64,000 bases of DNA from Candidatus Eremiobacteraceae bacterium (GCA_035710745.1 DASTCX010000004.1:124001-188000), one strand, 5' to 3'; positions 48,272 to 58,648 are shown, numbered from the stretch's first letter. Translations and numbers: made by a program. Notes: generated by a model not told the origin, from the sequence alone.

Positions 48272-48997
48272 ATGAAGATCTGCTGCAGCTCTCGGTCGTA
48301 TGCGCGCGCGATTCAATCAGGCGATCTCACGCAGCTCGAGTGGGTCGACCGGTGCGCTCGACGAGCGCTTGACGGCGTCGACTTCGCGAGCGCGCACTTT
48401 CCGCGGACCGACTGGGACTACCTCGCGCAGCTCCGCAAGCTGTGCGTCGATCGCGGCCTAACCGTCGCGGGCGTCGCATTCGACGGCGAAATCGGGGGCG
48501 ATGCGGACGTCGACGCTCAGGCCTCGCTCATCGAGACGTGGATCGGCAATGCCGTCGCGCTCGGCGCGCCGCTCCTGCGGATCTCGAGCGGTTCGTCGAA
48601 CGGCTCACCGGGCATCGCATGGCGCGAGCTGATCCGCGGCCTCAAGACGATCTCGCACGCGGCGAAAGAGAAAAACATCACTCTCGCGCTTGAGTCGCGC
48701 CCGGGATCACTCGTGTCGTCCCTGCCGGATTGCAAGCGCGCGTTGAAGGAGTGCGACTCCGCGTGGTTGCGCTTGGCGCAAGACCTGACCGCGGTGCTCT
48801 CGCCGTCGGAGGACGGCGATGCGCTGCTCGACGAGATCGTCGTCGCGATCGCGCGCGGCGCTGAAGTCGACGCAGGCGCGGCTCGCACGCTGCGTCGTCG
48901 CGGGTTCATCGGGTTCGTCACGGTGGAGACGTCGGGGGCCGATGAGGACAAGGTTGTTGCGGATTGTTTGGATCGGCTGCGTACCGCGAGCATATAA
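48272..48997 (+). CDS. xylose isomerase-like TIM barrel protein
   Basis: A 241-residue protein of the AP-endonuclease-2/sugar isomerase superfamily: strands WVDRCARRALDGVDFAS, LRKLCVDRGLTVAGVAFDGEIG, WIGNAVALGAPLLRISSGS and KNITLALESRPGSLVSS, with the metal-ligand Glu in ALESR. The C terminus keeps FVTVETSG. Members isomerise or epimerise sugars and inositols; the exact reaction is unknown. It is shorter than classical xylose isomerase. ATG 48272 lacks an obvious upstream alternative. Confidence 0.75.
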   Translation: MKICCSSRSYARAIQSGDLTQLEWVDRCARRALDGVDFASAHFPRTDWDYLAQLRKLCVDRGLTVAGVAFDGEIGGDADVDAQASLIETWIGNAVALGAPLLRISSGSSNGSPGIAWRELIRGLKTISHAAKEKNITLALESRPGSLVSSLPDCKRALKECDSAWLRLAQDLTAVLSPSEDGDALLDEIVVAIARGAEVDAGAARTLRRRGFIGFVTVETSGADEDKVVADCLDRLRTASI

Positions 48998-49054: not shown

Positions 49055-49061
49055 TTCATCT

Positions 49062-49243
49062 ATCCCCGAAGAGCCGCTGCCTGCCCGAGATTTGAACCCG
49101 CTTACGCAGGTGGGTGCCTGCCCTGCCGCTGTTTAGGCTTCCCTCTCGAGGAGGGCTTGCACAAGGCGGCTCGGAGGCCCGGCTCCCGTTGGTGACTGTG
49201 TTGGTTCAATCACCGACAACAGGCCGGCGCACACCCCAGGGTT
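49062..49243 (-). ncRNA. ssrS: 6S RNA (RNA polymerase regulator)
   Basis: 6S RNA mimics an open promoter and traps the housekeeping RNA polymerase. On the minus strand from about 49243 the transcript folds as one rod. A closing stem joins CCCTGGG near the 5' end with CTTCGGGG at the 3' end, then GCCG with CGGC and TTGAACC with GGTTCAA. A large central bubble follows, then a terminal stem (GCCGC with GCGGC) with hairpin CCCTC-CTCGA-GAGGG. The loop-proximal AAGCC and CACCCACCTG...GGGTTCAAA stretch resembles E. coli 6S (AAGCCTTAAAAC, TTCACCTTG...GGGTTCAAG). A consensus promoter and a terminator flank it. Ends are approximate. Confidence 0.68.
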
Positions 49244-49249
49244 GGACCT

Positions 49250-49633: not shown

Positions 49634-52432
49634 CTACATGCTGATCTTCCACCATAGTGTGGTCTGACGTGGCGTGAGCGACTGCTCCATGTAGTAGCCG
49701 ACTGCCGGATAGTAGACGCCGTTCGGCGCCGGCAAATAGTTGTCGTAGAAGACATCGCCGCTCTCGTTGCACGGCACAAGCCCTGCGCGAGCGCACACGC
49801 CGCTCGGCGTCCAGTTTCCGTTGCCATCCTTGTTCAGGTAATTGAAGTTCGACTTGGGCACGGGGTTCGTCACGTCGTTGAAGAGATTCGTGATTGTCAA
49901 GCCGATCCGTCCGCCGCCAAAGGCGTGTGAGATCGATATGTTCTCATTGTACCATGCCGGCCCGCGGAGCGATTGGGCGAACGAGTGCAGCTCTCGAGGG
50001 TCGAGACAGACCAGACCTGCGTTGTTGGTGTGCGTGCAGGTGTTTCCGGTCATGATCACCGGCTTTCCGGTGTTTGGATCGAGGTCGTAGAACAGGTTTC
50101 CGTCGCCGTACGGATAGCCGGTAGACCACAGCGTGTTCGAATCGATCTCCCAGCCGCCACGCTTCCAGTCGAGACCCAGGTCGGACGAATATGGCGCTGC
50201 GTACGTCGCCGGCAAGAAGTTATTCGCCTCGATGTTTGCCAGAAACTGGGTACTACGGCCGCCGAAGTACGGACCGGCCGCTGCAAGAACATTGCTGAGC
50301 GTGTTGTCGAACGTGAACGAGAAGAACGCGGATAGGCCCTGCGGCACATCGCGGTGCAGCGCGAGCTCGAGACCGTGCGTCTTCGTCGAAGCACCGTTGG
50401 TAAAACTGGTCACACCCTTGGCATCCGTAAACTCGACGATATAGTCGTTATTGACATGCCAATACGGCGTGAGGCGCATCGAGACACCGTTAGGAAAGCT
50501 GTGCTCCCACGAGAGATCGTAGCTCTTCGCAGTCGATGGCTTGTATTGGTGAAAGACCGGTCCACTCCCGAAGAACGCGTAGTCGCTGAAATTCTCCGCG
50601 TAAGCGGTGCCGATGAATTGGCCCATGTGCGCGTACGAACCGCGCAACACGTCGGCGTCGCCGGCCTGGTACGTGAGGGCAAAGCGTGGACTCACGAACG
50701 ATTCGGTGAACGGATAGTTCGTACCGAAAGCTGGCTGCGCGTTCTGGGCGAGCACCGGCGAGATCGAATAACGCTCGAGATCCCAGCGCACCCCAGGCTC
50801 CACCACCCATTTGCCGCCGGTGATGTGATCGCTCGCGTAGGCGCTGTAGACGTGGGTCGGGGCGAGCGTTACCCGCGAGAAATCCGGCCATTCGCCTGAG
50901 AATCCCGGGCTGCCGCAGAAAATGCTGCAATCGGATACTTTCCGGAAATTGAGATCGTATTCGTAGCCGGTCCCGATTTTCAGCAAGTTATGCTCGCCCA
51001 GCTGGTTGGCATAGTCGTAGTTCCAGAAAGTCTGCAGCGTATGGCGATCTTGGTAGTAGCAGCCGTAACACCACAAAGCGAACACGTCATATTCACCTGG
51101 TCCGGTGAAATTTGGCCCGAAAAACGACGGCTCGCCGAGATTCTGGGCCCATTCTTCGTCGAAGAAATAACCGTTACGAGATTGCGCGACGCGCGCCCGG
51201 TAGTACGAGTGGTCGTTGATCGTGTGGCTGAACGACAGCTTTTGGATATCGTACCAGTGATACCACGCGTCGGCATTGTTCTTGAGCACGAGCGACGCGC
51301 AGGGGTCGCCGCCGAAGAGGTTGACGCACTTCGGGTTCGAGCCAGGCAAGACGCCGTTGAGCGCCAGCTGTTGACCCTGAACGCCACCGTAGCTCGAGCG
51401 GAAGATGCCTATGCCTTCCTCAGCGACGTATTGGAGGTCGTTCTGATTGTTCTCGCCCCAGTGATGGTGGACGTTGACGATATTGTCTTTGGTATTGACG
51501 AAGTCGAACGCTTCGAGGTTTTCCATGAAAAACTGGCCGTTTGTGGCGCCGTTCTTCCCGTAAATCTGATCGTCGTTCGTGTACGAGCCGGCGAAGAACC
51601 ACGACCACTTGTTGTCGGGCGTCGCGCCGCCATATTCCGCCTCAAGGTCGTGCGCGTAAGCCGGGCCGCCGGTCGAAAAGGTCGCGTCGCCGAACGACGG
51701 ATACGTGCCCTGCTTGACGACCATGTTGACGATGCCGCCGTTCGAGCCGCCTTGCTCCGCAGAGAGTCCGCCCGTCGTCACCTCGACGTTTTGAAGTCCC
51801 GTCGTGCTCAGTTCGGTCACGTAGAAGCCGACCGTCCGGTCGACGATCGGGATCTCCTCGAACTCCCAGCCGACTTCGGTCGTCGTGCCGCCGCGGATGA
51901 TCGGCGAGTTGCTTGTCGGGCCGCTCGTCACGCCGGGCGTGCGCCAGAGGACGTCGTACAGCGTGTGATGCGTCGTGTCACCGAGCTCGACGTTCATCTG
52001 CGCGGCCGTCACGTTGTACGTGTCCGACGTGAGGTTCGGCTGGACGAGGTTCGTCTTCGCCGTCGTCGTGATGTGGCCGAGCACTTTCGCTTCCGGCTGC
52101 AACACGACCGCGATGTCGAGCGTCTGGTCTTGGAACACGTTCTCGCCCGCGAGAACAGCCGAGCTGAATCCCGCCGCCGTCACCGTCACCGTGTATGTGT
52201 CCGGCGAGATGTTGACGATCGAGAAGAACCCCTTCGCGTCGGTGACGGTTTTGTAACTCCCGGTCGCCGCCGCCGCCGACACGTGCGCACCCGCGACCGG
52301 AGCGCCTTTGTCATCCTTGATCGTGCCGGTGAGACTTCCGGTCGAGCCGGCATTCGCCGGCGTCGCGCTCAGCAGCGCTCCGAAGACCGTTGCCACTGCG
52401 AAAAGCGCGAAACAGCGAGTGGTTGATCGCAT
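49634..52432 (-). CDS. TonB-dependent outer-membrane receptor with N-terminal carboxypeptidase-like domain
   Basis: A 932-residue outer-membrane protein. The signal peptide ends ANA. Residues about 28-115 form a carboxypeptidase-regulatory-like beta-sandwich (GSLTGTIKDDKGAPVAGAHVSA, TVTAAGFSSAVL). A plug domain follows (SPIIRGGTTTEVGWEFEEIPI, LQNVEVTTGGLSAEQGGSNGGIVNMVVKQG), and the rest is a long Tyr/Trp-rich beta-barrel ending in SLTPRQTTLWWKISM. This layout matches Oar-like or SusC-like receptors. ATG 52432 has GGAGG five bases before it. No ExbB/ExbD/TonB genes or substrate clues are adjacent, so the cargo is unknown. Confidence 0.9.
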   Translation of the reverse strand: MRSTTRCFALFAVATVFGALLSATPANAGSTGSLTGTIKDDKGAPVAGAHVSAAAATGSYKTVTDAKGFFSIVNISPDTYTVTVTAAGFSSAVLAGENVFQDQTLDIAVVLQPEAKVLGHITTTAKTNLVQPNLTSDTYNVTAAQMNVELGDTTHHTLYDVLWRTPGVTSGPTSNSPIIRGGTTTEVGWEFEEIPIVDRTVGFYVTELSTTGLQNVEVTTGGLSAEQGGSNGGIVNMVVKQGTYPSFGDATFSTGGPAYAHDLEAEYGGATPDNKWSWFFAGSYTNDDQIYGKNGATNGQFFMENLEAFDFVNTKDNIVNVHHHWGENNQNDLQYVAEEGIGIFRSSYGGVQGQQLALNGVLPGSNPKCVNLFGGDPCASLVLKNNADAWYHWYDIQKLSFSHTINDHSYYRARVAQSRNGYFFDEEWAQNLGEPSFFGPNFTGPGEYDVFALWCYGCYYQDRHTLQTFWNYDYANQLGEHNLLKIGTGYEYDLNFRKVSDCSIFCGSPGFSGEWPDFSRVTLAPTHVYSAYASDHITGGKWVVEPGVRWDLERYSISPVLAQNAQPAFGTNYPFTESFVSPRFALTYQAGDADVLRGSYAHMGQFIGTAYAENFSDYAFFGSGPVFHQYKPSTAKSYDLSWEHSFPNGVSMRLTPYWHVNNDYIVEFTDAKGVTSFTNGASTKTHGLELALHRDVPQGLSAFFSFTFDNTLSNVLAAAGPYFGGRSTQFLANIEANNFLPATYAAPYSSDLGLDWKRGGWEIDSNTLWSTGYPYGDGNLFYDLDPNTGKPVIMTGNTCTHTNNAGLVCLDPRELHSFAQSLRGPAWYNENISISHAFGGGRIGLTITNLFNDVTNPVPKSNFNYLNKDGNGNWTPSGVCARAGLVPCNESGDVFYDNYLPAPNGVYYPAVGYYMEQSLTPRQTTLWWKISM

Positions 52433-52594: not shown

Positions 52595-53629
52595 ATGGCA
52601 CGAGCGTTTCCAAGCGGCGCGCCGGTTCTGCGTTGCTCGCCCTTGCTGTTGCACCTCCGCCACACGTTCACGATCGCGCGATCGTCGGAGGACGTCGCCG
52701 AATCGGTGCTGCTCGAGCTCGACGACGGCGAGTTGACGGGGCTCGGCGAGTGCGCGCCGTCCGGCCGATACGAGGAGAGTCCTGGGCTTGTGACGCGTCA
52801 GCTGCTGGCCGCCGACTTCCGCGACGTCGATCTTTTCGAATTCGACGTCGCGCTCGGGCGGCTCGGCGGCGAGGAACGCGGCGCGATGTGCGCGCTCGAC
52901 ATCGCTCTCCACGACCTCGCCGGCAAACGGCTCGGAGTACCCGTCTGCCGGCTCCTCGGGCTCGATCCAAGCGCCGCCAAAGAGACGTCTTTCACGGTCG
53001 GTATCGCCGACATCGACACGATGGTCGCGAAGACGAAGGAAGCGGCGCATATGCCGATCCTCAAGGTCAAGGTGGGCGCGGGCAACGAGATCGAGACGCT
53101 CGAGGCGCTGCGCTCGGTCTATCGCGGGCGTATCAGGATCGATGCGAACGAGGGCTGGGAGCCGGAGCAGGCGGTGCGATTGCTCAACGAGCTCGCGCGC
53201 TTCGAGGTCGAATTCTGCGAGCAGCCCGTGCGCGCAGGCGCGCCCGAGCGGCTGCGCTTCGTGCGCGAGCGGTCGAGAATCCCGATCATGGCGGACGAGA
53301 GCTGCCGTATTCCGGCGGACATCGCGCCGCTCGCCGGGTGCGTCGACGGGATCGTCATCAAACTCGTCAAGTGCGGCGGCATGCGCGAAGCGGTCGCGAT
53401 GACGCACATCGCTCGCGCGCTCGGCATGAAGATCATGATCGGCTGTATGATCGAGTCGTCGATCCTCGCGACGGCCGGCGCTCACCTGACACCGCTCGTC
53501 GATTACGCCGACCTCGATGGACCGTTGCTCGTCACCGACGATCCGTATGACGGCGTCGTTTTCGACGGCGCGCAGATGCGTCTACCCGATGCTCCTGGGC
53601 TGGGGGTGGCGCTCCGCGCCTCGGCGTAG
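52595..53629 (+). CDS. enolase-superfamily dipeptide epimerase / DgcA-like enzyme
   Basis: A 344-residue member of the muconate-lactonising subgroup. It carries both catalytic Lys sites (LKVKVG, K157/K159; VIKLVKCGG) and the metal ligands D183 in RIDANEGW, E209 in FCEQPV and D234 in MADESC. This pattern is that of L-Ala-D/L-Glu epimerase (YcjG/YkfB). The next gene encodes a DUF1611/DgcN-like protein; in published work DgcA, a related epimerase, acts with DgcN on N-acetyl-D-glutamate, so either substrate is possible. ATG 52595 is preferred; ATG 52562 is also in frame. Confidence 0.9.
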   Translation: MARAFPSGAPVLRCSPLLLHLRHTFTIARSSEDVAESVLLELDDGELTGLGECAPSGRYEESPGLVTRQLLAADFRDVDLFEFDVALGRLGGEERGAMCALDIALHDLAGKRLGVPVCRLLGLDPSAAKETSFTVGIADIDTMVAKTKEAAHMPILKVKVGAGNEIETLEALRSVYRGRIRIDANEGWEPEQAVRLLNELARFEVEFCEQPVRAGAPERLRFVRERSRIPIMADESCRIPADIAPLAGCVDGIVIKLVKCGGMREAVAMTHIARALGMKIMIGCMIESSILATAGAHLTPLVDYADLDGPLLVTDDPYDGVVFDGAQMRLPDAPGLGVALRASA

Positions 53630-53637
53630 ACCGCCGC

Positions 53638-54684
53638 ATGATGCAGGCCAAGCGGCGCTATGCCATCCTCACGGACGGTTATCTCACCGACAGGCATGCG
53701 AAGACTGCGCACGGCGTCATGCAGTACGGACGCGACGAGATCGTCGCCATCATCGATTCGACGTACGCCGGGAAGAACGCGATCGATGTCGTTCCGCACC
53801 TCGGCCGCTCGTCGCCGATCGTCGCTACCGCGCGCGAGGCGCTCGCGCTGGGGCCGACGTCGCTGCTCCTCGGCGTCGCCACCGCGGGCGGCGTCGTGCC
53901 ACCCGCCTTTCGCGTCCAGATCCTCGACGCGATCGATGCGGGCGTCGAGATCGTCAGCGGTTTGCACGAGTTCCTCAACGATGACGAGGAATTCGTCGCG
54001 CGAGCGAAAGCGAGCGGCGCTAAGCTCTGGGATGTCCGGGAGGTTCCTGACGGCATCCCGCTGTTCTCGGGCGAAGCGTATCGCGTGCCGCAGACCGTCG
54101 TGCTCGCCGTCGGCAGCGACTGCGCGATCGGCAAGATGACCGTCATGCTCGAACTCGAGCGCGCCGGCCGCGCCGCGGGCGCACGCGCCGAGTTCGTCGC
54201 GACCGGCCAGACCGGCATTCTCATCGCCGGCAAGGGCATCGCGGTCGATCGCGTCATCTCCGATTTTGTCGCCGGTGCGGCCGAGCGTCTCGTTCTTTCC
54301 GTCGATCAGAACACCGATATCACGCTCGTCGAAGGTCAAGGGAGCATTCTCCATCCGGCTTACGCGCCGGTCACGCTCGGCTTGCTGTACGGCTGCGCGC
54401 CAGATTGTTTCGTCCTGTGCCACGATGCCGCGCGCAGCCGCATCGAGGAGTTCGACGTGCCGATCCCCGATCTGAAGACGCTCGCGGCGATGCACGAGTC
54501 GTGGGTCGCGCCGATCAAGCCGGCACGCTGCGTCGCCGTCGCGCTCAATACGCACAAACTCGATGAGAGCGAAGCGCGCGCCGCGATCGAGAACGCCGAG
54601 CGCGAGACCGGGCTTCCGGCCGACGACGTCGTCCGTTTCGGCGCCGACAAGTTATGGCGCGCGATCGCGAAGGCGGCGGCGTGA
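53638..54684 (+). CDS. DUF1611 family protein, DgcN-like
   Basis: A 348-residue DUF1611 protein: N-terminal Rossmann-like domain (ILTDGYLTDRHAKTAHGVMQYG, VVPHLGRSSPIV) and a P-loop-like domain with AVGSDCAIGKMTVMLELE (K166) and TGQTGILIAGKGIAVDRVISDFVAG. One family member, DgcN, is reported to N-acetylate D-glutamate in a route where a DgcA epimerase follows. Here it lies 8 bases after the epimerase gene. Its stop overlaps the next gene's GTG as GTGA. Function by context only. Confidence 0.85.
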   Translation: MMQAKRRYAILTDGYLTDRHAKTAHGVMQYGRDEIVAIIDSTYAGKNAIDVVPHLGRSSPIVATAREALALGPTSLLLGVATAGGVVPPAFRVQILDAIDAGVEIVSGLHEFLNDDEEFVARAKASGAKLWDVREVPDGIPLFSGEAYRVPQTVVLAVGSDCAIGKMTVMLELERAGRAAGARAEFVATGQTGILIAGKGIAVDRVISDFVAGAAERLVLSVDQNTDITLVEGQGSILHPAYAPVTLGLLYGCAPDCFVLCHDAARSRIEEFDVPIPDLKTLAAMHESWVAPIKPARCVAVALNTHKLDESEARAAIENAERETGLPADDVVRFGADKLWRAIAKAAA

Positions 54685-56309
54685 GAGCGCGCACCGGTCT
54701 CGCCATCGTGGCGTTTTGCGCGGTCGTCGCGGCCGCCGGCTGTTCGAAGGTCGGCACGACGACGAGCACGTCTTCGCAAAGCGTCAACCCGTGGACCGAA
54801 CACGGCGTGCTCCGCATCGTCGCGAATCAGGAGCCGAACTCGCTGCTTCGCCTTTTCTCGAATCAGGCAGCCGCAGACGACATGACCGCACTGCTTTTCG
54901 AGCCGATGTTCCGCTACGACGAGCGCGGCAACGCCGTGCCGGCGCTCGCAACGACGTTCCCGACGCAGCAGAACGGGCTCATCAGCAAAGACGGCCTGCG
55001 CATCACGTTCAAGCTCCAGCCGAAGGCGCGGTGGTCGGACGGACGACCGGTCACGGCTGACGATGTCATCTTCACGTGGCACGCGATCGTCGACGGCAAC
55101 AACCCGGTCGTGACGACTGCCGGTTACGACGGCATCAAGACGATGATCGCGGACAATCCGCATCAGGTGACGATGGTCTTGAAAAAGCCGTACGGTCCTT
55201 CGGTCTTCCTCTTCTCGGAAGGCTCGTTTCCGCCGCTGCCCGCGCACCTGCTCGCGCGTTATCCGCGCATCGACCGCCTGCCGTACGACTCGAACCCGGT
55301 CGGCGACGGACCGTACATCCTCAAGCAGTGGGTCCACGGCTCCGATCTCATCTTCTCGCCGAATCCCCTGTACTGGCGGGGCGAACCGAAAGTGAACGAG
55401 GTCGATATCCGCATCATCCCCAACTCGCTGACCGACGTCAGCGAATTGAAGACGCACGAGATCGACGTGCTCGACGGCGTTTCGAAGAATCTCATCGGCC
55501 AGTTGGATTCGATCGGCGGGATCCGCGTCGTCAAACAGTTGACGGCGAACTACCGGCATCTCGACTTCAACCTGCACAACCCCATCCTCGCCGATGTCAC
55601 AGTGCGTCGCGCGATCGCGACCTCGATCGACTTCGACAAGATCATCCAAGACGTCTATCACGGCCTCGGCCAGCGCGGCTCGACGGTCATCCCGCCGATG
55701 TCGTGGGCGGCGAGCGATCTCAAGCCGCTGGCGTACGATCCCGCTGCTGCGCGTGCTTCGCTTGACGCCGACGGATGGAAAGCCGGTCCGGGCGGCATCC
55801 GAGCGCGCGGCGGCGTACGGCTCTCGCTCTCGATGTCGACCGCGACGGAGAATCTTCCGAACCAGATGGCCGAGCAGATCGTCGCCGCGGAGTTGCACGA
55901 CGTCGGCATCGACGTGACGATCAAGAACTACGCGACGTCGGTGCTCTTCGCGCCCGACGGCCCGCTTTACGGCGACAGGTACGACATGGCGTGGATCGTC
56001 AACACGGACGGAACCGATCCCGACTTCCTCGGCCTTATCGGCTGCGACTACTGGCCGCCGCACGGCGCGAACACGGATTTCTACTGCAACCATAAGGTCG
56101 ATGCGCTGCTAAGCGACGCGCAGGTGCACTACGATTTCGCCGTGCGCAAGCGCGACTACGATCAAGCCTCGAAGATCCTCATCGACGAGGCGCCGTACGT
56201 CGTCGTCTATTGGGATATCAATGTCGTCGCGGAGAACTCGGACGTCAAGAACTTCAAGCCGTCACCCTTCATCACCGACTTCTGGAATGCATGGGAATGG
56301 GAGATCTGA
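54681..56309 (+). CDS. oligopeptide-binding lipoprotein (SBP family 5)
   Basis: A 542-residue extracytoplasmic binding protein of the DppA/OppA type. It starts at GTG 54681, overlapping the previous stop. Signal peptide with lipobox VAAAGC, then PNSLLRLFSNQAAADDMTALLFEPMFRYDE, SDGRPVTADDVIFTWHAI and RLPYDSNPVGDGPYILKQW, the family's conserved elements. No permease or ATPase genes are next to it. With an epimerase, DgcN-like protein and peptidase in the same run, the likely cargo is murein-derived peptides. Confidence 0.92.
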   Translation: MRARTGLAIVAFCAVVAAAGCSKVGTTTSTSSQSVNPWTEHGVLRIVANQEPNSLLRLFSNQAAADDMTALLFEPMFRYDERGNAVPALATTFPTQQNGLISKDGLRITFKLQPKARWSDGRPVTADDVIFTWHAIVDGNNPVVTTAGYDGIKTMIADNPHQVTMVLKKPYGPSVFLFSEGSFPPLPAHLLARYPRIDRLPYDSNPVGDGPYILKQWVHGSDLIFSPNPLYWRGEPKVNEVDIRIIPNSLTDVSELKTHEIDVLDGVSKNLIGQLDSIGGIRVVKQLTANYRHLDFNLHNPILADVTVRRAIATSIDFDKIIQDVYHGLGQRGSTVIPPMSWAASDLKPLAYDPAAARASLDADGWKAGPGGIRARGGVRLSLSMSTATENLPNQMAEQIVAAELHDVGIDVTIKNYATSVLFAPDGPLYGDRYDMAWIVNTDGTDPDFLGLIGCDYWPPHGANTDFYCNHKVDALLSDAQVHYDFAVRKRDYDQASKILIDEAPYVVVYWDINVVAENSDVKNFKPSPFITDFWNAWEWEI

Positions 56310-57313
56310 TCGCATTGGTCTACGCCGCACTCTGGATCGTCGCGGCGAACACGGACAAGCCGGCGTTCACGACGGCTGTCCACGAAGTCGCGGGCGGCTT
56401 CTCGTCGGCGATCGCGTCGTGGAACGTGAGCACGAGCGGCGACGCGTGGATCAGCGTGCAGATGCGCGCCCGCGTCGGCGATCGGTGGACGCGCTGGTAC
56501 GAGATGGGCCACTGGAGCTCGGCGCTCGACGACGGCCATCGTCATTCGATCGACAAGCAGTCGGATGCCGACGGCGAAGTCGATACCGACACGTTGAATC
56601 TGACGCATCCCGCGACGGCCGTCCAATTGCGGGCGGACCTTCATCCTTCGTCTGCAGGCACGATGCCGGCGCTCCACATGCTCGCGGTGACGACCGACAG
56701 CGGCGCGCAGGCTTCGCAAAGCGATGCGATGACGGCGGACGTCGGCGCGTGGGGCACCGATATCGACGTGCCGCAGCTGACGCAGCGCGTCGGAAAGCAA
56801 GGCGGCGCATACGGCGGCGGCGGCGGCTCGTGGTGTTCGCCGACGAGCGTCGCGATGGTCATGGGCTATTGGGCGCACAAGCTCGACAAACCGCAGTGGG
56901 TCGTCGATGTGCCGACGGCGGCGAAGGGGACGTACGACCCCGTTTACGACGGCTGCGGCAATTGGCCGTTCAACGTCGCATACGCATCGGAGCATGGGCT
57001 CGCCGGTTATATCGAACGATTCTCATCGCTCGCGGATGTCGAACGGCTCGTCAAGCGCGGCATCCCGGTGATCGCGAGCATCAAGGTCGCGACGGGTGAG
57101 CTCGATGGAACTCCGTATGGAACCACAGACGGTCATCTCCTCGTCGTGCGCGGATTCACGCCGACGGGAGATGTTATCGTCAACGAACCGGACGGAGACC
57201 CCGGGACGATCCGCCGCGTGTACAAGCGCGCCCAGTTCGCGCACGTCTGGCAGCACGGCTCCCACGGCGCGGTCTACATCATCGCCCCACCCCAAGACTT
57301 GCCCACGCGCTAA
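56291..57313 (+). CDS. C39-like cysteine peptidase, exported
   Basis: A 340-residue protein: N-terminal hydrophobic signal-like segment (LIALVYAALWIVAA), then an all-beta domain (about 30-140) with RVGDRWTRWYEMGHWSS and HSIDKQSDADGEVDTDTL, then a C39-like peptidase fold. The catalytic triad is probably Cys182 (GSWCSPTSVAMVMGYW), His282 (TDGHLLVVRGF) and Asn298 (VNEPDGDP). It could trim peptides for the binding protein. The start overlaps the previous gene by 19 bases; ATG 56297 is an alternative. Confidence 0.8.
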   Translation: MGMGDLIALVYAALWIVAANTDKPAFTTAVHEVAGGFSSAIASWNVSTSGDAWISVQMRARVGDRWTRWYEMGHWSSALDDGHRHSIDKQSDADGEVDTDTLNLTHPATAVQLRADLHPSSAGTMPALHMLAVTTDSGAQASQSDAMTADVGAWGTDIDVPQLTQRVGKQGGAYGGGGGSWCSPTSVAMVMGYWAHKLDKPQWVVDVPTAAKGTYDPVYDGCGNWPFNVAYASEHGLAGYIERFSSLADVERLVKRGIPVIASIKVATGELDGTPYGTTDGHLLVVRGFTPTGDVIVNEPDGDPGTIRRVYKRAQFAHVWQHGSHGAVYIIAPPQDLPTR

Positions 57314-57805: not shown

Positions 57806-58644
57806 CTAGGTGGTGGGTTCGGGGCCGAGGCCGCGGCGGGCGACCGCGATGTCGACGATGAGGCCCGGCAAGATCGAACAAAATGCGTCGTTGACCGACT
57901 TCATGGCGTCGAACTCGCCCTCGGGCATGTTCAACGGGTACGGCAAGTGCTGCGCCGCCTCTTGCGCGGCAGCATCGACCTTGTTGCACAGGTCGCGTCG
58001 CCGGACGTCGGCCAGCATCGGCTTTACATCCGACCAGACGACGTCGAGCCAGTCGGGGTATGCGCCGAGCGCGCGATGCGCAGTGCTCACGAACGAGAGA
58101 CCGGCCACGCGCTGCATCTCGTCGAAAGCGTTGCGAACGCGAAGCGGCGCCTCGCGATCGTCCGCCATCGGCACTTGCAAGCCGCGAAAATCCCTCACGA
58201 GCCGATCGCGGTCGTCATGCTGCGGCGGTTGCGAGACACCGCCGCCGCCGATCGGTTCGCCGCCGAGCGCGACGCGCAGCGCCTGCGATACGATCGCGAG
58301 TTTCGGCAGCAGGCCATGGAAGATCTCGACGATGTCGCGGAGCTTGCGAAGATCCGCGTCGCCGTAGTTGCGAGCGTGGAGCTCGGCGGCATGGTCGGAG
58401 ACGGGCCAACTCGCGACGCCGTCGTCGGCGATGTCGGCGACACGGCGCCCCTGCTCGACGAACGGCGCCGACAGCATGCTCGGACGCAGCCGCCGCCACG
58501 CGTAATCGAGGAACTTCGGCGTCGCGGCATACGCCTGGAACATCGAGTCGACGAACGAGACGCGCATCGACTCTTTGAAATCGCGATACGCCTCTTTGAC
58601 GCGATCGTCGGAGACGTCGGCGTCGCGGACGAGTGGGATGCTCT

Positions 58645-58648
<4 letters not shown>
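57806..58648 (-). CDS. DehI-family-like protein (haloacid dehalogenase type)
   Basis: A 280-residue all-helical protein with an internal duplication: the block VSFVDSMFQAYAATPKFLDYAW plus RRLRPSM in the first half matches LSFVSTAHRALGAYPDWLDVVW plus SDVKPML in the second. This two-repeat layout and the FVDxxFxAxA pattern fit DehI, a non-stereospecific 2-haloacid dehalogenase family, though most members are of unknown function. ATG 58648 overlaps the aspS stop as ATGA. A Gly-Gly-rich linker joins the halves. I would not claim dehalogenase activity. Confidence 0.6.

Follow-up and report, generated by a model that had tools for sequence, protein, structure and literature searches.

Gene content and layout of the locus

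We analyzed a 64,000-nucleotide stretch of DNA (hereafter the window) from a Candidatus Eremiobacteraceae bacterium (GCA_035710745.1, DASTCX010000004.1:124001-188000), in which a sequence-only reading had proposed an operon for the scavenging of murein peptides or D-glutamate, made up of four genes in one strand with coupled starts. The source genome (2.97 Mb, 98% complete) belongs to Candidatus Eremiobacteria, and a related locus is carried by a Candidatus Eremiobacteria metagenome-assembled genome, with 95% identity between the DUF1611 proteins. The proposed layout was borne out, as positions 52595-57313 of the plus strand hold genes for an enolase-superfamily epimerase, a DUF1611 protein, a peptide-binding lipoprotein and a C39 peptidase, overlapping or nearly touching each other and all scoring above the Pfam gathering thresholds (Table 1). 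The epimerase and DUF1611 genes are separated by 8 nt, the DUF1611 and binding-protein genes share 4 nt (GTGA, 54681-54684; 31 nt with the alternative ATG), and the binding-protein and C39 genes overlap by 19 or 13 nt (56291/56297-56309). A scan for promoters and terminators returned sites no more frequently than shuffled sequence did.

Table 1. Coordinates of the operon genes and of flanking features in the window
Feature	Position	Strand	Pfam family or remark
MR_MLE enolase-superfamily dipeptide-epimerase-like protein, 344 aa	52595..53629	+	PF13378/PF02746
DUF1611/DgcN-like protein, 348 aa, Rossmann-like N domain and P-loop C domain	53638..54684	+	PF07755, PF17396
Family-5 peptide ABC transporter substrate-binding lipoprotein	54681..56309, alternative ATG start 54654	+	PF00496
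Peptidase_C39_2 cysteine peptidase, beta-rich N-terminal region, N-terminal hydrophobic segment	56291..57313	+	PF13529
Xylose-isomerase-like TIM-barrel (AP_endonuc_2) gene	48272..48997	+	PF01261; unit membership uncertain
TonB-receptor-like gene with CarboxypepD_reg domain	49634-52432	-	diverges from operon
DehI-like gene	57806-58648	-	downstream of operon

Conservation of the operon and of its core pair

Gene neighbourhoods were compared at 60 Eremiobacteria DUF1611 loci, drawn from 54 genomes and 34 genera. The order epimerase, DUF1611, binding protein and C39 on one strand was present in 44 of the 60 loci, corresponding to 44 of the 54 genomes and 28 of the 34 genera, so the arrangement is not a chance one; several of the remaining loci are truncated at contig ends. 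DUF1611 and C39 genes therefore do co-occur elsewhere, as a conserved four-gene unit, and the lack of such company that would have spoken against the sequence-only reading is not what we found.

Co-occurrence was assessed in 72 near-complete, low-contamination relatives, of which 65 had DUF1611 and 67 the epimerase, the latter as a weak match only in G038 and G119. When strong epimerase matches were counted, the two genes were either both present (65/72) or both absent (7/72). The presence of C39 tracks this pair in 61 genomes, with two exceptions (G024 and G025). Outside Eremiobacteria, the epimerase adjoins DUF1611 in Actinomycetota, Chloroflexota, Sumerlaeota, and Verrucomicrobiota; the flanks fetched for these pairs held no detectable relative of either the binding protein or C39. 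The gene that comes next after the pair is often an M29 aminopeptidase in Thermoleophilia and their relatives (20 loci); M29 was ruled out as the missing dipeptidase of the window genome, which has none. A second Eremiobacteria DUF1611 subtype with its own epimerase (loci L124, L126, L127, L129, L135, L146, and L155) is neighboured by PF00144 beta-lactamase-fold hydrolases, an S9 oligopeptidase, family-5 binding proteins and TonB receptors, as well as by an XRE-cupin regulator and a ThrE-like exporter. Given the M29 aminopeptidase, the S9 oligopeptidase, the hydrolases and the binding proteins around it, the pair keeps the company of peptide catabolism. As a separate observation, two Wallbacteria loci (L051, L055) contain DUF1611 genes without a nearby epimerase and have a common neighbourhood, including, by eye, an MBL-fold-hydrolase-like gene.

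Features of the epimerase

The epimerase (MR_MLE_C 130.7 bits, MR_MLE_N 38.3 bits) has 3IJI as its best solved relative, followed by 4GFI. Its catalytic residues are intact: both K-x-K lysines, all three metal ligands (D, E, D), the acid-base lysine and the DxD motif are kept in 51/51 operon epimerases. The position aligned with Arg24 of YcjG is occupied by Glu (39), Ala (6), Ser (4), Thr (1) or Gln (1) and never by Arg, while Arg is found at this site in both YcjG and 3IJI. In the YcjG/YkfB structures we take Arg24 to lie on the 20s loop and to contact the side-chain carboxylate of the Glu moiety of the substrate. Its loss suggests a substrate that differs from L-Ala-D/L-Glu or a range wider than this dipeptide, although a nearby Arg of this loop, conserved in 51/51 proteins, may still allow acidic substrates.

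Curated models do not assign the protein to a described specificity: it reached 231.8 bits with the DgcA model NF042940 (cut-off 400; references 508 and 436), 142.7 bits with the YcjG model PRK15129 (cut-off 343) and 126.4 bits with the Thermotoga-type epimerase model (cut-off 500). The reference DgcA, DgcN, and YcjG proteins all pass their own models; Escherichia coli YcjG also passes the model of Pantoea DgcA and vice versa, which means that these labels separate specificities poorly. Maximum-likelihood analysis placed the operon epimerases with four Eremiobacteria paralogues in one group (support 100/98), separate from the DgcA/YcjG group, which contained three other Eremiobacteria paralogues, these being three of the epimerases of the second DUF1611 subtype. 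At the end of strand beta-7, a Glu is kept in the operon epimerases where DgcA has Gly, and a second Arg of two of the three DgcA references is missing. The DxD motif was dropped as a discriminator between dipeptide and N-acetyl substrates, as DgcA references also carry DLDG.

Features of the DUF1611 protein, the binding protein, and the C39 peptidase

The DUF1611 protein combines a P-loop domain (PF07755, 241.4 bits) with an N-terminal Rossmann-like domain (PF17396, 90 bits), and the solved structures nearest to it are 2OBN, 7XRJ, and 2G0T. With the DgcN model NF041892 it scored 267 bits, below the cut-off of 480 that the DgcN references pass (551 and 525), but the residues invariant in 51 operon DUF1611 proteins (G159, D161, G165, and K166 of the P-loop, T189-G190-Q191, D209, E216, and E232-G-Q-G to G235) are identical in the DgcN reference proteins. 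Because of this match, its chemistry is probably related to that of DgcN.

The binding protein (SBP_bac_5, PF00496, 261.1 bits) carries a lipobox-like VVAAAGC, read directly from the sequence, and its nearest solved relative is AppA (1XOC). No permease or ATPase gene lies beside it at the locus. The window genome encodes 16 family-5 binding proteins, four of them clustered on contig C18. Elsewhere it has one Opp-type permease pair, accompanied by a binding protein of its own; no second pair of this type was identified among the permeases looked at.

The C39 protein matches Peptidase_C39_2 (PF13529) with 84.1 bits (gathering threshold 24), and Gln165, Cys182, and His282 are conserved in 49/49 orthologues and Asn298 in 48/49, a pattern that would be expected of an active papain-like peptidase. 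A sequence search of the PDB with this protein found no relative. An AlphaFold2 model built from three input sequences had a mean pLDDT of 52 and displayed a beta-rich N-terminal region; the fold search of the PDB with this model gave weak matches only (best E ~8e-4, TM ~0.2). In the window's own family the N-terminus is hydrophobic and signal-like (the best 15 residues have a mean hydropathy of 1.5-2.2), whereas most other Eremiobacteria copies are without a hydrophobic N-terminus. As the hydropathy test is crude and start codons were assigned by rule, the location of the peptidase is a prediction. A similar split is known for YkfC, which has a signal peptide in Bacillus cereus and none in B. 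subtilis (PMC2954226).

Enzymes encoded elsewhere and flanking genes

The sequence-only reading had also remarked that the usual NlpC/P60 enzyme and LD-carboxypeptidase were lacking, and this holds at the genome scale: no S66 LD-carboxypeptidase was found genome-wide, and the sole NlpC/P60 gene is on another contig, resembles secreted wall hydrolases with a LysM-like N-terminus, and is not YkfC-like as far as visible. In genus g27 (G035, G038, G040, G044, G060, G078, G081, and G093), 7/8 genomes are without epimerase and DUF1611, all eight are without C39, and 7/8 have an S66 carboxypeptidase. Mutual exclusion between S66 and the operon was rejected, as S66 also occurs in G081, the one g27 member that has both genes of the pair, and in 8 other relatives; S66 is thus a trait of the genus.

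Upstream of the operon, the AP_endonuc_2 gene (cluster c1) recurs in relatives on the same strand as the operon (39/39 members, 37 loci); in the window, the minus-strand TonB-receptor-like gene separates it from the epimerase. A 6S RNA (RF00013, 86.7 bits, gathering threshold 46.4) was identified at 49059-49245 on the minus strand.

Proposed function and alternatives

We propose, at roughly even odds (probability about 0.5), that the four genes form a catabolic operon for short D-amino-acid-containing peptides, most likely derived from bacterial cell walls. Judged from sequence, such an operon would merge the logics of YkfBC-OppA and DgcN-DgcA, with the substrate and every reaction inferred. 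The lipoprotein would bind a peptide outside the membrane and pass it to an oligopeptide permease whose genes lie at another site of the genome. The C39 papain-like peptidase, taking the place of the NlpC/P60 enzyme YkfC of Bacillus, would break the peptide down into dipeptides or free amino acids. This step would precede import in the window's family, with its signal-like N-terminus, and would be cytoplasmic in most other Eremiobacteria. By Mg-assisted two-base proton transfer, the epimerase would then invert the alpha-carbon of a D-residue held as an N-acylated residue (a dipeptide or an N-acyl amino acid). The DgcN-like DUF1611 protein may N-acylate a free D-amino acid, yielding a substrate for the same epimerase, and ordinary peptidases or deacylases would finally free the L-amino acid.

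This proposal is supported by the conserved gene order, the co-occurrence of the pair and the intact catalytic residues of epimerase and peptidase, and further by the M29 genes of the Thermoleophilia loci, the peptidase neighbours of the second subtype and the Opp-type permease pair in the genome. By analogy, the ykfB-ykfC-oppA precedent of B. cereus (PMC2954226) also points in this direction. Several observations weigh against it. The Arg24 equivalent is absent from the operon epimerases, the epimerase falls below the curated DgcA, YcjG, and Thermotoga-type cut-offs and the DUF1611 protein below that of DgcN, and the operon holds no ligase, deacylase or dedicated aminopeptidase. One relative (G025) keeps C39 without epimerase and DUF1611, and another (G024) has both without C39. 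With 16 family-5 binding proteins in the genome, "peptide" as the ligand is a family-level guess, and we know of no C39 family member that cleaves murein peptides. The earlier idea of a pathway joining uptake, cleavage, and epimerization is therefore plausible in that its parts fit, while the substrates it named, L-Ala-D-Glu and N-acetyl-D-Glu, are candidates only, given the failed cut-offs and the lost Arg.

Two more specific routes correspond to these substrates. In a true DgcN-DgcA route, the DUF1611 protein would N-acetylate D-Glu, the epimerase would racemize N-acetyl-Glu and a deacetylation would follow, with binding protein and peptidase supplying D-Glu peptides. The top NCBIfam matches are indeed DgcA (232 bits) and DgcN (267 bits), the strongly conserved DUF1611 residues are those of DgcN proteins, and in Pantoea dgcN-dgcA are followed by a GsiB-type peptide transporter. 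We nevertheless consider this route rather unlikely, as both scores lie far under the cut-offs of 400 and 480, which the plasmid-borne references pass (436-508 and 525-551), the operon epimerases belong to a clade separate from DgcA/YcjG, and they have the beta-7 Glu instead of Gly and lack the second Arg of the DgcA references. A plain YkfBC-type murein route, in which C39 would cut L-Ala-gamma-D-Glu-mDAP (mDAP, meso-diaminopimelate) and the epimerase would turn L-Ala-D-Glu into L-Ala-L-Glu, leaving DUF1611 a secondary role, is favoured by the layout shared with B. cereus ykfB-ykfC-oppA (PMC2954226), by 3IJI as the best solved relative, whose close plasmid-borne Bacteroides homologue adjoins a C40 peptidase, and by the beta-7 Glu and DxD motif common to 3IJI and the operon epimerases. 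However, the partner conserved across phyla is DUF1611 and not a peptidase, the Arg24 equivalent is lost in 51/51 sequences and the genome is without LD-carboxypeptidase, which makes this route unlikely as well.

The mostly acidic residue at the Arg24 position (Glu in 39/51) could suit cationic or polar side chains, and general peptidases adjoin the paralogous subtype, both of which would fit a pathway that epimerizes or degrades peptides of another origin than the cell wall, e.g., cationic or secreted bioactive ones. No biosynthetic genes are found nearby, though, and class-wide conservation suits general nutrition better than a specialized product, so we regard such a pathway as quite improbable. 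A more novel reading, possible if doubtful, is a general salvage cycle for D-amino acids: DUF1611 would perform acyl- or aminoacyl-transfer to various free D-amino acids, the epimerase with its re-tooled side-chain pocket (Arg24 replaced by Glu or a small residue) would invert them, and C39 would replace NlpC/P60. If true, the DUF1611-epimerase pair would represent a widespread route for D-amino acids beyond D-Glu.

Comparison with known systems

The primary study of the DgcN-DgcA pathway is reportedly that of Yu et al. 2023. This D-glutamate pathway of marine Proteobacteria and haloarchaea, which is named in PMC12363236 and PMC10845958, resembles the operon in having a DUF1611 gene beside an enolase-superfamily racemase gene, with identical P-loop and other conserved DUF1611 residues. 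It differs in that the operon proteins score about half of the curated cut-offs, the epimerase is of another clade with beta-7 Gly replaced by Glu, and a peptidase and an orphan binding protein are added. The murein tripeptide catabolism of E. coli (YcjG/MpaA) shares the epimerase fold and catalytic residues, but the operon epimerase reaches 142.7 bits of the 343 required by the YcjG model, has YcjG Arg24 replaced and is not accompanied by an MpaA-type gene. The Bacteroides 3IJI-type dipeptide epimerase with its C40 peptidase is the closest solved epimerase and has the beta-7 Glu and the DLDG motif; in contrast to the operon, it has Arg at the Arg24 site, a C40 partner, and no DUF1611 gene next to it at the plasmid locus examined.

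The closest published precedent is ykfB-ykfC-oppA of B. cereus, encoding an epimerase, an NlpC/P60 peptidase and a peptide-binding protein (PMC2954226). Together with B. subtilis ykfABCD beside dppB-E, it resembles the operon in combining an epimerase with a papain-like cysteine endopeptidase and with a protein that binds peptides, whereas the Eremiobacteria operon has C39_2 instead of NlpC/P60, an additional DUF1611 protein, no LD-carboxypeptidase and no Arg24 equivalent. The "unusual form" claimed by the sequence-only reading thus stands in part, since B. cereus already combines epimerase, peptidase, and peptide-binding protein (PMC2954226) and dgcN-dgcA lie beside a peptide ABC transporter in Pantoea. 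What is new is that known parts, YkfB/OppA-like and DgcN/DgcA-like, are combined class-wide with another peptidase family and an altered epimerase active site. Uncultured soil phyla widely carry the pair of DUF1611 and enolase-superfamily epimerase, and the only described role that we found for it is that of DgcN-DgcA for D-Glu. The operon links this pair to peptide capture and cleavage, in a lineage that throughout lacks the carboxylate-binding Arg known from the classic epimerases, and it offers a testable case for wider substrates in the turnover of D-amino-acid-containing cell-wall debris by Eremiobacteria.

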